Assembly: GCA_944321875.1 (NCBI GenBank)
Contig: CALUMX010000012.1
Span: 1-64,000 of the forward strand
DNA from: an uncultured Muribaculaceae bacterium
GTDB taxonomy: Bacteria; Bacteroidota; Bacteroidia; Bacteroidales; Muribaculaceae
Reading direction: 5' to 3'
DNA: 64,000 nucleotides
The notes beneath the pieces were generated by a model, which saw nothing but the letters and a program-made list of their open reading frames with translations, had not been told where the DNA came from and did no database searches. This document shows positions 50,900 to 60,371 of the stretch, piece after piece (position 1 is the first letter of the stretch; each line of letters opens with the position of its first letter). The position numbers and the translations under genes were made by a program.

Positions 50900-50934
50900 G
50901 TCGTCTCCCTTGGGTTGGGAGGCGGCTTTTTTTT
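50900..50934 (+). terminator. Terminator of the sulfatase gene
   Basis: A 10-bp stem with two G-U pairs (50900-50909 with 50917-50926), 7-nt loop, then eight T. Confidence 0.85.
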
Positions 50935-51190: not shown

Positions 51191-51826
51191 ATGAAATTTA
51201 AATTGATTGTATTATCTTTGTTGATGGCAGCGAGCACTAACTTTGTAAACGCACAGGACAACAGTGGAAAAAACTTATCGGGTGAGAATCGTCATGAATT
51301 CCGTCTTTCCGTCAGCGACGGTCTTACGTTAGGTTCTTCTGGTATTCTCGGTGATGGACTGACTGACGCTATTCTGGGAAGCAAGCGTTCGGATTCGAAG
51401 ACTTCGATGCTTTTCGGTTTTGGCTACCGCTATTCGATTAACCGTTTCCGCGTGGGTGCAGACTTGGGTTTCCTGCAGGCAAGCAGTAAGGTGACATTGT
51501 CGGGAGAGACCGCTCCTTCGATAAAGGACAAGGGTTTGAACTTCCTGATTCTTCCGACAGCTGAGTTCACTTACTTCAAGCGTGGATTGGTAGAACTCTA
51601 CGGTGGAGCATCGGTGGGTGTCGACTTGGTTCGCCAGACGCAGACTCCGCTGAGCGCAGACCGCAAGAATGAGAAAATGAAAAATAAAAATGACTTCTCA
51701 GCGTCTGTCGCTTATCAGGTAAATCCGATTGCCGTGCGTGTGGGCAACGACCGTATCGGCGGATTCATCGAGGCAGGTTTCGGTTACAAGGGCTTTGCTA
51801 CGGCTGGTGTGAGCCTGAAATTTTAA
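51191..51826 (+). CDS. Outer-membrane beta-barrel protein
   Basis: A 211-residue exported protein: signal peptide to about residue 21 (NFVNAQ), then alternating polar and hydrophobic strands such as FGFGYRYSINRFRVGADLGF, ending in GYKGFATAGVSLKF with a terminal Phe, the usual barrel end. The family is not recognised; it resembles the OmpW/porin-like small barrels. It ends 32 bp before the ECF sigma gene, so it may be part of that transcription unit. Confidence 0.7.
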   Translation: MKFKLIVLSLLMAASTNFVNAQDNSGKNLSGENRHEFRLSVSDGLTLGSSGILGDGLTDAILGSKRSDSKTSMLFGFGYRYSINRFRVGADLGFLQASSKVTLSGETAPSIKDKGLNFLILPTAEFTYFKRGLVELYGGASVGVDLVRQTQTPLSADRKNEKMKNKNDFSASVAYQVNPIAVRVGNDRIGGFIEAGFGYKGFATAGVSLKF

Positions 51827-51858
51827 GAACAACAGACTTCATTGTCAATTAAAACGGT

Positions 51859-52416
51859 ATGGATATCCAACGGAAGATACAGTTTGAGAAACGCTTTAAG
51901 CAACATTATCCGAGGCTGTGCTGCATAGCACTCGGATATGTTGCCGACCGCGACGACGCGGAGGACATCGTGCAGGAAGCATTCATCAACGTTTGGCACA
52001 AGGGCCTGGACGGCCTTTCCGACGAGGAGTTTGTTCCCTACATGACCAAGGCGGTGAAAAATAACTGTATCACCTTTCTCCGCCGGCAGCAGCAAACGCT
52101 TTCCATCGACGAGCATCCGGCGGCAGCCGGAGTCCTTGACGACGATTCGCACGACGAGGAGACTCTGTCGCCCGGCGAGATGTTGGAGCGTGCGCTGGCG
52201 ATATTGCCGCCCAAATGCCGCGAGGTGTTTCTGATGGCAAAAATGCAGGGTATGAAGTACCGTGAGATAGCCGCCGCGTTGAGCCTTTCGGAAAAAACGG
52301 TGGAAAACCAGATGTCAAAGGCCATTCGGCTGCTGCGTGATTTCGCGTCGGCGATGCCGTTCGCTATGGTGGCCGTTGTCACTCTTGTATTATCAATCAT
52401 TCTTAATTGCGATTAG
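51859..52416 (+). CDS. ECF sigma factor, FecI-like
   Basis: An RNA polymerase sigma-70 family protein of 185 residues. Region 2 is in DRDDAEDIVQEAFINVWH, region 4 in LPPKCREVFLMAKMQGMKYREIAAALSLSEKTVENQM. The last about 18 residues are strongly hydrophobic (FAMVAVVTLVLSIIL), as in many Bacteroidota FecI-like factors. The next genes are FecR (3 bp away) and a receptor with an STN domain, so this is a cell-surface signalling set: ligand at the receptor releases the sigma factor through FecR. Confidence 0.93.
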   Translation: MDIQRKIQFEKRFKQHYPRLCCIALGYVADRDDAEDIVQEAFINVWHKGLDGLSDEEFVPYMTKAVKNNCITFLRRQQQTLSIDEHPAAAGVLDDDSHDEETLSPGEMLERALAILPPKCREVFLMAKMQGMKYREIAAALSLSEKTVENQMSKAIRLLRDFASAMPFAMVAVVTLVLSIILNCD

Positions 52417-52419
52417 ATT

Positions 52420-53373
52420 ATGAAGCACGACTATGATATTGACGCATTGCTGGCCAAGCATTTTACAGGTGAGAGGCTGACTGCCGGCGAACAGTCGCAG
52501 CTGAACGCGTGGATGGCTGACAATGACGGAGAGTATAGAAAGATAAAACGCCTTATGGAGGCAGAGATTCCGCAGGCACAGGCGTTTGACGCCGATGCTG
52601 CCTGGGAAAAGGTGGAGGGCCGCCTTACGCGCAGGCTGACTATCCACTGGAACCGCCGAATGGTGGCTGGATGGGCGGCAGCGGCCGTATTCCTTATCGT
52701 GTTTGGCATAGCGTCGTTCCTGTTCCTTCAGAACGATGTGGAGGAAACCTCCGCTCATTTTGCCAACACTTCCGGCCATGAGCAAATAGTGGTGTTGCCC
52801 GACAGTTCGGAAGTGACACTCTATCCAAGTTCGCGTATTGATTACCTGGCAGATGCCGGTGGCCGTAAGGTCAATCTTGAGGGTAAAGCGTTTTTCCAGG
52901 TGAGGAAGAACGGACAGACGTTCTCGGTCGATGCCGGAACGCTGAACGTGGAAGTGCTGGGTACGTCATTCCTTGTCGACGTGCAGCAGGCCGACAGCAG
53001 CGGAGTCTATGTCAAGACAGGCCGTGTGCAGGTCGAGGCTGCCGGCAGTCAGACGATACTGACGGCCGACCGTCGGGCGGTATTGTCGGGCGATGTACTC
53101 AGGGTTGATTCGATTGCCAATCCTCGTATGACCTTCGGAGGTCGGAGCCGGATGCTCTCGTTTGAGCGCGCACCGCTCTGGGAGGTTGTCGGAACGGTGA
53201 AGGACGCTACCGATGTGGAGATTCTGTTGGATAAAGGTCTGGGCGGACAACTCGTCACGACACGCATCAGTACCAACGACTACGAGAGTATTGCCGCAGA
53301 GTTGGCTTTCATCTGCGGGTGCCGGTGCGACACGCTGAAAGCCGGGAAACGTTACAGACTGTATTATGAATAA
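52420..53373 (+). CDS. FecR-family anti-sigma factor
   Basis: A 317-residue inner-membrane regulator: cytoplasmic N-terminus of about 80 residues that should bind the sigma factor, one membrane segment (about 84-105), a periplasmic FecR domain (about 115-215, including VVLPDSSEVTLYPSSRI) and a C-terminal domain of the DUF4974 type. It overlaps the start of the receptor gene by 8 bp. It should pass the state of the receptor's STN domain to the sigma factor. Confidence 0.93.
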   Translation: MKHDYDIDALLAKHFTGERLTAGEQSQLNAWMADNDGEYRKIKRLMEAEIPQAQAFDADAAWEKVEGRLTRRLTIHWNRRMVAGWAAAAVFLIVFGIASFLFLQNDVEETSAHFANTSGHEQIVVLPDSSEVTLYPSSRIDYLADAGGRKVNLEGKAFFQVRKNGQTFSVDAGTLNVEVLGTSFLVDVQQADSSGVYVKTGRVQVEAAGSQTILTADRRAVLSGDVLRVDSIANPRMTFGGRSRMLSFERAPLWEVVGTVKDATDVEILLDKGLGGQLVTTRISTNDYESIAAELAFICGCRCDTLKAGKRYRLYYE

Positions 53374-55793
53374 ACGAAAGCGGCTGTTTGCAGCCATACT
53401 GACACTACTGACAACTATTATGAATATTCTGCCGGCTTTTGCTGCCGGACGAGTAGCGGAGGAGCGGATTACCATATCCGGCTCTTCCGCTACTGTGCTG
53501 CAATGGTTTGATGAAATCGAGCGGCAGACGGGCATTGTGCTGTCCTATGACCCTTCGGCCATCGACCTCGGATGGCGTTGTACGCTTAGTAGTGGCAGGA
53601 CAACGGTTGGCGACATGTTGCAGACGCTGCTGAAAGGCCGGGAAGTGCGGCTGCAGGAGATGCCGTCGCGCAAGCTGGTGATTTATGTGGGCGAGGAGCT
53701 GAAATACGTATTGAGCGGTACGGTCGCTGACGAGGCTGCTGCCGAGAAGCTCTATGGCGCTACGGTGTCGGTCGACGACGGAGAGGGTACGCGCTTGTAC
53801 GCCCAGACGGATGAAAACGGTTTCTTCCGTTTTGTTCTTCCGGTTGGTGAATACATGGTCGGTATTTCGTATTTGGGTTATTCTTCTCATGCGGCAAAGG
53901 TGAAACTGGAGGGCAACCGTTGGCTTTCGGTGGCGATGAAGCCTCTGCCGTTTGAGATGGAGGAGATAACGGTCAATTCGCGGACTCCGGTTGACGAGAT
54001 GGGGGATTTGTCGCCTTCCTCACAGCTTTCGTTCAGTTCCAACGACTTGTTTTCGCAGCTTTGGATTTTGCCGGGGGGGGACAGGAGTCCCCGCTGGCAA
54101 TAATTTTCAGGTCGACGGTGGCAGTTACGATGAGAACCAGCTCCTGGTCGATGGAGCGCCGGTCTATCATCCCGGCCACGTCAGCACCATTTTCCCCGCC
54201 ATCAACGGAGATGCGGTGAAGAGCGTGGCTTTCCACAAGGGCTTTTTCCCGACACGGCTGGAGGGGCGGCTCTCCTCGGTGACGGAGATGACGATGAAAT
54301 CAGGCAACAAGCGTGATTTTGCGCATACGTTATCGCTTGATATGCCGGCTGTGTCTGCCGTCCTCGAAGGACCGATAGTCAAGGATAAGCTTTCATATAT
54401 CGTTTCCGGCCGTCGCAGTTGGCTTGACCTTTTCGACGGATTGCTTTCTGAGGAGAATCGTTTGGGACTTTCCGCCTACGACTATACGGCCAAATTATCC
54501 TACGATGTCAGCCCGGCGACCACGATAGAGGCGTTTGCCTACGGTGCTTGGGACAATTACCGGCTGCCGCTGGCGGAGGGAAGCAGAGAGCCCGTTTTGC
54601 GTTGGGACAATCAGCTCTATCAGCTGAGGTTGAATACGCGTTTCGGGCAGGTGGGAAACACGACTTCCTTGTTCTATACCTCGCACACGAATCGCGCCGA
54701 TGCCGCATTGTTCGGTTATGACGGCGGAGGCTATCTGTCGAGTGGTGTCCGTACGCTGAACGTTCTGTCGGAATTCAGTCTCGCGCTTGACAATATGTTC
54801 AGCATTCGCTGGGGTGCGAAATATTCGCATGAGATTTTTGACATTGCCTCACTGGACGATGACCAGTTGAAGTCGAGGCGGGAAAGAATCAATCAATACA
54901 CGGTCTTTTATGACAACCATATCCGCATCCGCGACAATCTGTACGCCCAGGTAGGTGTGCATTTCGTGGGATACCGGCCGGTGCGCCACCGCGACTATTA
55001 CGGTATCCAGCCCCGGTTGTCGCTCCGCTATTCGCTGACAAGCCGTGACTTGCTGTTTGCCAGCTTCTCCGAGATGCAGCAGTTCTATCATTTCCTGCGC
55101 CTTGAGACGATTGCCCTGCCCACCGATTTCCGAATGCCTAGCATCGACGGGTTCAAGCCGCGGGCTTCGGAACACATCGAGCTTGGTTGGAAACATTTCT
55201 TGCCGGGAGGTTCCATCGAAGCATCGGTCTACTACAAGACGCGCCGGAATGTGATTGCGCTCAAGCCCGACACCTATTGGATAGAGGGCAGTCTGAGCGG
55301 TTACATAATGGCGGGTAACGGCGACAGCTACGGCCTGAAGCTATTCTTCTTCAACAACTGGCCGCGATGGATGCTTCAGGCTGCCTATACGTTCAGCCGC
55401 AGCCGTGAGTGGTTTGACGAAGTGAAGGAATTGGGCAAGCTGCCGTCGCTCTATGACGTTCCCCATCAGTTCAATGTCGCTGTGTCCTACAAATTGACCT
55501 CCCGTTCGATGCTTTCGTTGGGAGGAACACTTCATTCGGGGAGAGTTACGGACGATTCCGACAGTTTTGAGTTCGTACCCTTGGAACAGTTCCGTCGGAA
55601 TCGTGAGTCGGTGAGCTATCGTGTTGACGCAGGCTATACGTTTAAGAAAGATTTCGGACGTTCGCTTCTGGCATTCCGGTGTGGACTTTATAACATTATC
55701 GGAAATCCGACGGAGGAAGAAGTGCTCAGTTTTTATACCATCTATTTCAATAATCACCTTCTCCCTTATGTCGGCATCAGTTTTAAATTCTGA
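53366..55793 (+). CDS. STN-domain TonB-dependent receptor, frameshifted at a G8 tract
   Basis: Two frames together encode one about 808-residue outer-membrane receptor. Frame 1 (53366-54103) gives a signal peptide, an STN signalling domain (about 35-110), a carboxypeptidase-regulatory-like domain (about 112-200) and a TonB-box-like MEEITVNSR. It stops 23 bp after a run of eight G at 54073-54080. The plug (FQVDGGSYDENQLLVDGAPVY) and the whole barrel, ending in YVGISFKF, continue in the other frame up to 55793. Seven or ten G would join them: ...LPGG then TGVPAGNN. So the gene is off as sequenced, which suggests slipped-strand phase variation; a sequencing error or plain mutation is possible. 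It closes the sigma/FecR/receptor set. Confidence 0.88.
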
Positions 55794-55810
55794 TGTCCTC
55801 TTGGAAAAAC

Positions 55811-55843
55811 AAAAAAACGGACTCTAAGGAAGTCCGTTTTTTT
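55811..55843. terminator. Bidirectional terminator between receptor and barrel genes
   Basis: A 13-bp stem (55811-55823 with 55831-55843), including A- and T-runs on its outer part; it serves convergent genes. Confidence 0.85.
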
Positions 55844-55863
55844 GTTGATACTATGATTGTTTT

Positions 55864-58298: not shown

Positions 58299-60371
58299 TT
58301 AGAGGCAGAATTTCTGCACGTGTCCGTCGTATTGCAGCAGGTAGATGCCTTGCGGAACGCGGATGCTGAACGAAGACTGGCTGCTTTCGTGCAGCAGGAT
58401 GCCGTTCAGGTCGTATATGCGTACGAGCCGTTGTTCCGGGTTGGTGATGTAGGCTGTACCATTGTCAGCCGTTACCTGAACATCTTTTGGCAGCTGTGCG
58501 TCGATGCCGCTTTGCTCCTTTTTCTCGATGCGGAGACGGTCGGCATACAGGTAGTAAATGCTGCTCTTGCCGCAAGCGTGGATTCCGAGACGGTAGAGTC
58601 CGGTAGTCGTAATGTTGAACAGGGCTGACGTATAAGTCTTGGTTTGCGCATGGTCAATGGCTACTGCCTGCATGATGTTGTTGGTCATGGCTTCTGCCGT
58701 AGCGTCTGTGCCGAAGGCCATTTCCACTTCAGCCGCATACTGGTCGTCTTCCGAGCGCAAATCGCAGCTCATCTGGTAGTCGTAGCCGGCTTCCAGTTTG
58801 ACAGACGGTGTTATCAGCCAGTCGTTATTGGTTTCGCTGTATGCCCAGTCATAGCGGATGGTATTGGCCTCCAGACTGTAAATCCAGGTTGTACGGTCGT
58901 TGTTGCAGTCGAGTGCGCTGAAAAGCGGGAAACGTGTCCAGTCAGTCAGGTCTTCATCCACTGGTACCGACAGCGATTCGCCCAGGATTACAAAATTGGA
59001 TTCCGTCACTTCTCCATCCCCGTATTCTGAAAGCGGAGTAATGGAGTAGTAGCGGATTTGCATGCCTTCTTCCACGGATTGCGTTTCCTGGAAGGAAGTT
59101 CCGGCATAAGCCTCCTGTGCGGTCTCGTTGTCAGGCTGGCGCACAATTCGGTAGGTTATCTGCTCAGGGTCGACGTAGCCGTTATGTATGCCCGTTTCCG
59201 GCAATTTCCATGTCAGCGACATCGTGTTTCCGTTTGCTGTCAGCGTGACGTCGGTCACAGCCCGTGGAGTGTCGACGCCGACGAAGCGTTCGATGTTGAC
59301 GGCAGGAGCGCTGCCGGCATCGTTACGGACACTGATAGTGAAGCGGTACATACCGTTATTCTCCACTTTCAGCGGCTCTGACACGGCTTGTCCCGGTGTG
59401 CCTTGGCCGGAAACGGTTACCTTGCCGTCGATGGAAACTTCGTAGGTCAGTTCGCCTGAAAGCGGTTGACCTTCGGAGTCGTTTGACGGGAGCGTGAACG
59501 ATATGTTGCCTTCGAGCGCACCCTTTTCAAAAGTGACGAGGGCATCGCTGATGTCACCCGGCTGTTGCTGCGGGATGTCGGACTTGATATAGATGCCTCT
59601 TATCTGAGTCTTGTCCGGATAAGTGCCGATTAGGGAGCTTGTCCGTTTGTCGTGTCCACCTGATAGAGCGCGCCTCCCTCTTCGGTATAGGCTGACCAGT
59701 AGAGAATCTGGCTGGCGGGGTCGAATGTCGCTGATTGAGTTCCGCTCGGTTGCACGCCGGTGTCACCGATTTTTGTCAGTTCGGCAGTCGCTTTGTCGAT
59801 TGTGTAGAGCGTACCGCTGGAGGCGGAGATGCCGTAGAGCGTTCCGTTCTTGTCGGCTGCCAGCGCACACATTTGCTCGATAGGGGCGATGGGTGACTGT
59901 ACGCCGTTCTCCAGGTTCATGATACTGAGATTGAAAGAGCCGTCACCCGACTGGTCCAGGCTGCAACCGTAAACGTTACCGGTGGCCGGGTCGAAAGTCA
60001 TGTCGGTGGTAACGTACGATACGTTCCAGTCCATGATGTCCACATAGTTAAATTCCTGCTTCTCGACGTCGCAGATGGAGAGAGAGCCGACAGTGAAGGC
60101 TCCGCCGAAGTCGAGGTAGGACAGAACGTAGTATTTCCCATTGGCATAGACCGCACCACCGTTGCCCATCAGGTCACCGTCCAGCCATATCGGCGTAAAC
60201 GTGATTTCGGGAGTTGCCTGGAAGGAATAAATGCCCCAGGACATTTCTGCGGTTTCTTCGGAATACTTGCCAGGAACCGTAGATGGTGGGCGGTTCCGGA
60301 TTTGCGCCAAATGCCGGTAGCGACAGGCAGGCAATCAGCCCTGTCGCTGCCAATTTCTTTACGTTTTTCAT
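58299..60371 (-). pseudogene. Surface protein with T9SS-like C-terminus, broken by two frameshifts
   Basis: Three frames on the minus strand read as one protein of about 690 residues. The start (60371) gives a signal peptide MKNVKKLAATGLIACLSL and ANPEPPTIYGSW. Near 60265 the frame must shift to continue with YSEETAEMSWGIYSFQ, a beta-propeller-like region (repeats of the type DKNGTLYGISASSGTLYTID). Near 59635 it shifts again to TSSLIGTYPDKTQIRG and goes on through fibronectin-III-like segments to a C-terminal domain (VRIYDLNGILLHES, GIYLLQYDG) resembling a T9SS sorting domain. The two shifts compensate each other. Neither site is a long homopolymer. It is a pseudogene or carries sequencing errors; the substrate or role is unknown. 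Confidence 0.75.

Follow-up and report, generated by a model that had tools for sequence, protein, structure and literature searches.

A run of eight G lies within the receptor gene of a predicted cell-surface signalling cassette of an uncultured Muribaculaceae bacterium, and the reading frame of that gene is broken at the run. The locus, in the first 64,000 nucleotides of contig CALUMX010000012.1 (hereafter the window), raises the question of whether the run is an evolved on/off switch, as the preliminary description proposed in calling it likely phase variation, a plain mutation, or a fault of the assembled sequence. Bacteroidales are better known for switching by DNA inversion; a true switch here would be a contingency locus working by slippage, and it would affect a receptor and its regulon together. 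The interpretation we favor, with confidence somewhat above even, is that a TonB receptor of the cell-surface-signalling type has recently, and in this lineage only, acquired a slippage mutation at a G run of accidental origin. The broken allele is known from one assembled sequence.

Four genes on the same strand, with the receptor gene at the end, lie between two terminator-like hairpins:

50900..50926, + strand, terminator-like hairpin preceding the cassette
51191..51826, + strand, cassette gene 1, small predicted outer-membrane protein of 211 aa (gene order shared by 13 ortholog loci)
51859..52416, + strand, ECF sigma factor of 185 aa, intact (TIGR02985, 137.5 bits, above cut-off; PF08281, PF04542)
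52420..53373, + strand, FecR-type anti-sigma factor of 317 aa, intact (PF04773, 4.2e-14)
53366..54103, + strand, 5' fragment of the receptor, 245 aa (Pfam, alignment, AlphaFold model)
54073..54080, + strand, G8 tract with a one-base frame shift of the receptor (sequence, codon scores, frameshift HMM)
54081..55793, + strand, 3' part of the receptor, with plug and TonB-dependent beta-barrel, read in the other frame (PF00593, ortholog identity)
55808..55846, + strand, terminator-like hairpin downstream of the receptor (perfect 16-nt inverted repeat, loop of 7 nt)

An ECF sigma factor adjoining a FecR-type anti-sigma factor (TIGR02985 and PF04773), together with a receptor that has a TonB beta-barrel and plug, is the composition of a cell-surface-signalling transducer set. 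The sigma/FecR set with a TonB receptor that had been described from the sequence was borne out by the TIGR02985 match above cut-off and by the matches to PF04773 and PF00593. The beta-barrel match in the 3' part was above cut-off (3.7e-17); the plug profile match was weak (E 0.025), and the plug was conserved by ortholog alignment. No Pfam family matched the 211-aa outer-membrane protein. The identical four-gene order was present in 13 ortholog loci, from Barnesiella, Bacteroides, Butyricimonas, Odoribacter, Phocaeicola and Xylanibacter. As in FecA/FecR/FecI and FoxA/FoxR/FoxI, an ECF sigma factor, a FecR-type anti-sigma factor and a TonB receptor with an N-terminal periplasmic domain are adjacent on one strand, but the window receptor has a CarboxypepD_reg-like domain between its N-terminal domain and the plug (a Bacteroidales architecture), the cassette is led by the extra gene for the small outer-membrane protein, and the receptor frame is broken.

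The 5' fragment comprises a signal peptide, an STN-like domain (residues about 30-113), a CarboxypepD_reg-like domain (116-203) and the TonB-box region, and it ends in a short out-of-frame tail. Pfam found CarboxypepD_reg-like domains in this first part of the receptor; no STN profile matched with Pfam in 15 members, nor with NCBIfam or PDB profiles. The AlphaFold model was confident over residues 31-190, with an order of strands and helices that fits STN. The Foldseek hits shown for the N-terminal model were driven by the CarboxypepD-like domain, and the STN-like domain modelled alone was poor (pLDDT 54). Judged by eye from its sequence and from the secondary-structure pattern of the AlphaFold model, the N-terminal domain looks like STN. 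In the designation "STN TonB receptor", the TonB receptor stands, given PF00593 and the orthologs; the STN label was not confirmed by profile searches.

The frame break itself was apparent by several measures. Direct reading of the sequence gave exactly eight G at 54073-54080 on the + strand. The upstream frame opens with an ATG at 53366, within the 3' end of FecR, and reaches a TAA at 54101-54103 after 245 aa; the downstream frame is open from 53970 onward and ends at the stop codon 55791-55793. By codon scoring the coding signal moves between frames at the G8, the net shift being one extra base. An HMM in which frameshift transitions are modelled explicitly placed the event at 54082-54084. 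Apart from the tract, the receptor runs through ~570 codons without further stops or indels, and alignments of orthologs run on unbroken over it, with DLFSQ(I/L)WILPG on the near side followed by TG.P.GNNF.VDGG on the far side. These results confirm the claim that the receptor is broken at eight G and is otherwise intact, and the position assigned to the break, between TonB box and plug, was about right, since it sits between the N-terminal domains of the receptor and the plug. A repeat tract is thus located in a reading frame where its length decides expression, as in phase-variable loci. In base-composition shuffles of the 64-kb window, 1.13 runs of G8 on either strand were expected by chance.

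In order to place the tract among related receptors, eighteen distinct orthologs (49-61% identity; Barnesiella, Bacteroides, Odoribacter and others) were gathered by an alignment-based scan of contigs; a scan with the window protein alone matched nothing, and viral contigs contained no receptor match. All eighteen are intact, so that the disabling change belongs to the window genome, as in a recent pseudogene. The intact orthologs all have WILPGV here, with PGV encoded, for instance, as CCG GGC GTG, CCG GGA GTA or CCG GGG GTG, and in none do more than five G precede the T in the codon for Val. No G or C run longer than 6 was present anywhere in the ortholog receptor genes, and the tract was neither conserved nor recurrent in homologs. 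Among near and far homologs together, the residue after LPG was Val in 49 of 53 and Ile in the remaining 4, and never Gly. A tract of 7 or 10 G is in frame, as had been stated, but the resulting protein would read LPGG(G)T where the family has LPGVT, so the restored receptor would not have the normal family sequence at this site. Since the window receptor lacks that Val in any frame, with the frame-restoring lengths giving LPGGT or LPGGGT, it differs from the family by at least two changes, one a substitution and one an indel.

A DNA search found no ortholog in three congeners, the receptor homologs in 297 genomes of the window's family were only ~25-30% identical, and in two congeners a different gene follows nuoN; for these reasons we regard the cassette as accessory in the window's lineage. 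The cassette (51191-55793) was seen scattered across Bacteroidales families and was not found in the three congeners, and horizontal spread of the four genes is possible. Bacteroides caecigallinarum ET12 (L084, 4380-5660) has lost the same receptor independently: compared with a relative of 88% identity, an internal deletion has taken ~0.7 kb out of the 5' part, and a second break lies further on. The sigma and FecR genes of that locus are open, and loss of the receptor with both of these kept indicates that such loss is tolerated elsewhere.

The age of the break was assessed from gene trees built with the same 12 taxa for all cassette genes. The window's share of the tree length was 0.16 for the upstream part of the receptor and 0.14 for the downstream part, as compared to 0.15 for the outer-membrane protein and 0.13 each for sigma and FecR. 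Decay of the receptor does not exceed that of the other operon genes, and the break is therefore recent, or not real. These relative branch lengths, the same as for the intact cassette genes, led us to reject an old pseudogene long free of selection, a reading to which we give hardly any credence and against which the ~570 undamaged codons also speak. In its favor, among the columns where all other orthologs share one residue, the window protein has a different one in 10% upstream of the tract and in 9% downstream, the highest values in the set (orthologs at most 8%), but these values are the same on both sides and fit a long branch.

Several features of the tract are those expected if slippage at the G8 were an evolved means of toggling the receptor and the sigma regulon: it is long enough to slip, it is in a surface receptor, a shift at its position removes most of the protein, and both halves are otherwise undamaged, with receptor decay equal to that of the operon partners. 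The clean frame past the tract is likewise expected of a reversible switch and in this respect counts against the mutation that we favor. The claim of likely phase variation was nevertheless not supported, given that no ortholog has the tract, that the in-frame lengths put Gly where 53 of 53 homologs have Val or Ile, and that the genome purges G runs from its genes. In 707 kb there were no coding G runs of at least 7 (3.4 expected from synonymous shuffles) and no coding C runs of at least 7 (6.7 expected), and coding G6 runs were depleted fivefold, with 4 found against 20.6 expected. Eleven tracts of G8 or longer occur in the genome, the longest G10, and the one at 54073-54080 alone is within a gene, the ten others being intergenic. 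In addition, MutS and MutL domains were identified in open frames, indicating that mismatch repair genes are present. Evolved phase variation is consequently a possible but distinctly unlikely reading. In a recent review the test for phase variation is reversible switching that can be seen without selection, and C7/C8 tracts of this sort, namely the mga C8/C7 change and the siaD C7 tract, count as accidental and not as evolved phase variation (PMC11868660). The GeneTack study put singleton frameshifts down to indel mutations or sequencing errors and placed phase variation among the clusters (PMC3711429). A clean G-run frameshift in a surface gene is insufficient for a call of phase variation; relatives, reads and a working in-frame protein are needed.

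A local sequencing or assembly error, with an intact receptor in the cell and a contig wrong by one or two bases where the sequence is rich in G, is the alternative we take most seriously, although we consider it unlikely. In its favor, the missing Val demands two changes in one place, and a second broken gene lies nearby:

58302 to about 60370, - strand, second broken gene, 4-6 kb from the receptor (HMM, homologs)

This gene had weak matches, its N part to DUF4394/DUF6923 (propeller-type) and its C part to choice-of-anchor J with a T9SS tail. Continuous alignment to two intact homologs showed a break near 59635, where there is no homopolymer, and a second single-base break near 60265, also without a homopolymer, is probable. 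Frame breaks were scanned for in 872 kb of stretches, equal to 32% of the genome, with sensitivity only in strongly coding stretches; the frameshift HMM recovered both known breaks unprompted, and the truly frame-broken genes numbered two, both on the window's contig, with no true break detected in the ~797 kb outside that contig. Two further HMM hits, at C1:155869 and C2:125351, were rejected as ordinary junctions between genes (by eye, mraY/murD-like and ruvX/def-like). With a second break 4-6 kb away and none elsewhere in the sample, a local assembly fault is possible. Against such a fault, the base quality is good, as judged by the low rate of breaks elsewhere in the sample and the eleven A/T runs of at least 8 inside open frames, the genome is 99.84% complete in 45 contigs, and the G8 is far from the ends of its 74,473-base contig. 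Two broken genes within 6 kb may reflect poor assembly of this patch, or a stretch of accessory genes on which selection is weak.

A G run is also a plausible slippery site, and the shift required here is a single base, so that a ribosomal +1 shift or transcriptional slippage might yield some full-length receptor. We regard recoding of this kind as very improbable, since the product would carry Gly for Val; moreover, the orthologs have no such site and need no recoding, which indicates that there is no conserved programmed recoding site.

For the slippage mutation that we favor, the likely sequence of events would begin with a substitution in the conserved Val codon (the site is CCG GGG GTG in, for example, the orthologs L076 and L083), by which adjacent G would be merged into one run, and replication slippage would next have added one G. 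The 245-residue exported piece would presumably still be made, with the N-terminal domains and without plug or barrel, and receptor uptake would be lost. Induction of Fox and Fec signalling is inhibited when the signalling domain is present free and in excess; in the Fox system this domain protects the anti-sigma factor (PMC11637429, PMC9249621). If the FoxA and FecA cases carry over, a free signalling domain here would protect the anti-sigma factor, and the regulon would be held off and not merely left unregulated; the 245-residue product may in this way keep the sigma regulon off. Slippage back at a low rate could occur, as for any such run, with no sign of selection as a switch. A true G-tract switch whose off state exports the N-terminal signalling domain, holding the anti-sigma factor and silencing the regulon, seems to us improbable. 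The retained N-terminal fragment offers a testable idea on how broken transducers affect their sigma factor.

In the poly-G/C slippage loci of Campylobacter and Neisseria a G run likewise lies in the frame of a surface protein and its length sets the frame, but the window tract is a lone one that is absent in relatives, its in-frame length alters a conserved residue, and the genome has mismatch repair and depleted coding G runs. In mga C8/C7 of group A streptococci and siaD C7 of meningococci, which are accidental mutation-prone tracts of 7-8, slippage likewise inactivates the gene with no evolved switch evident, although the changes there were seen directly in populations and here one assembled allele is known. 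Within the same order, the invertible promoters of SusC/SusD-type receptors in Bacteroides also control how outer-membrane receptors are expressed. In contrast, no inverted-repeat pair suggestive of an invertible segment, and no invertible promoter, was found around the window cassette.

Between two convergent genes, one G8 (L022; G000 C1:109224-109231) makes up part of a hairpin loop; the hairpin (CGGGAATGA...TCATTCCCG, then a T run) resembles a terminator. Two contig ends (L032, G000 C25:47074-47083, and L039, G000 C42:78-85) are near-identical, with G10 in one and T-G8-C in the other at the same place, and are probably a repeat at an assembly break. Across the window's family, G9 tracts, often intergenic, were present in 113 of 119 genomes (L090-L119, L178-L217), and the length was exactly 9 in 55 of 75 tracts. 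Many of these G9 tracts are within the motif TTAAC..TTAACAA(T/C)-G9-TAA-N15-TAnnTTTG(C); a TAnnTTTG was found 10-34 bases past the tract in 16 of 75, 13 of these at 17-19, as compared to 3% in AT-rich controls. This family motif looks like a promoter element of fixed length.
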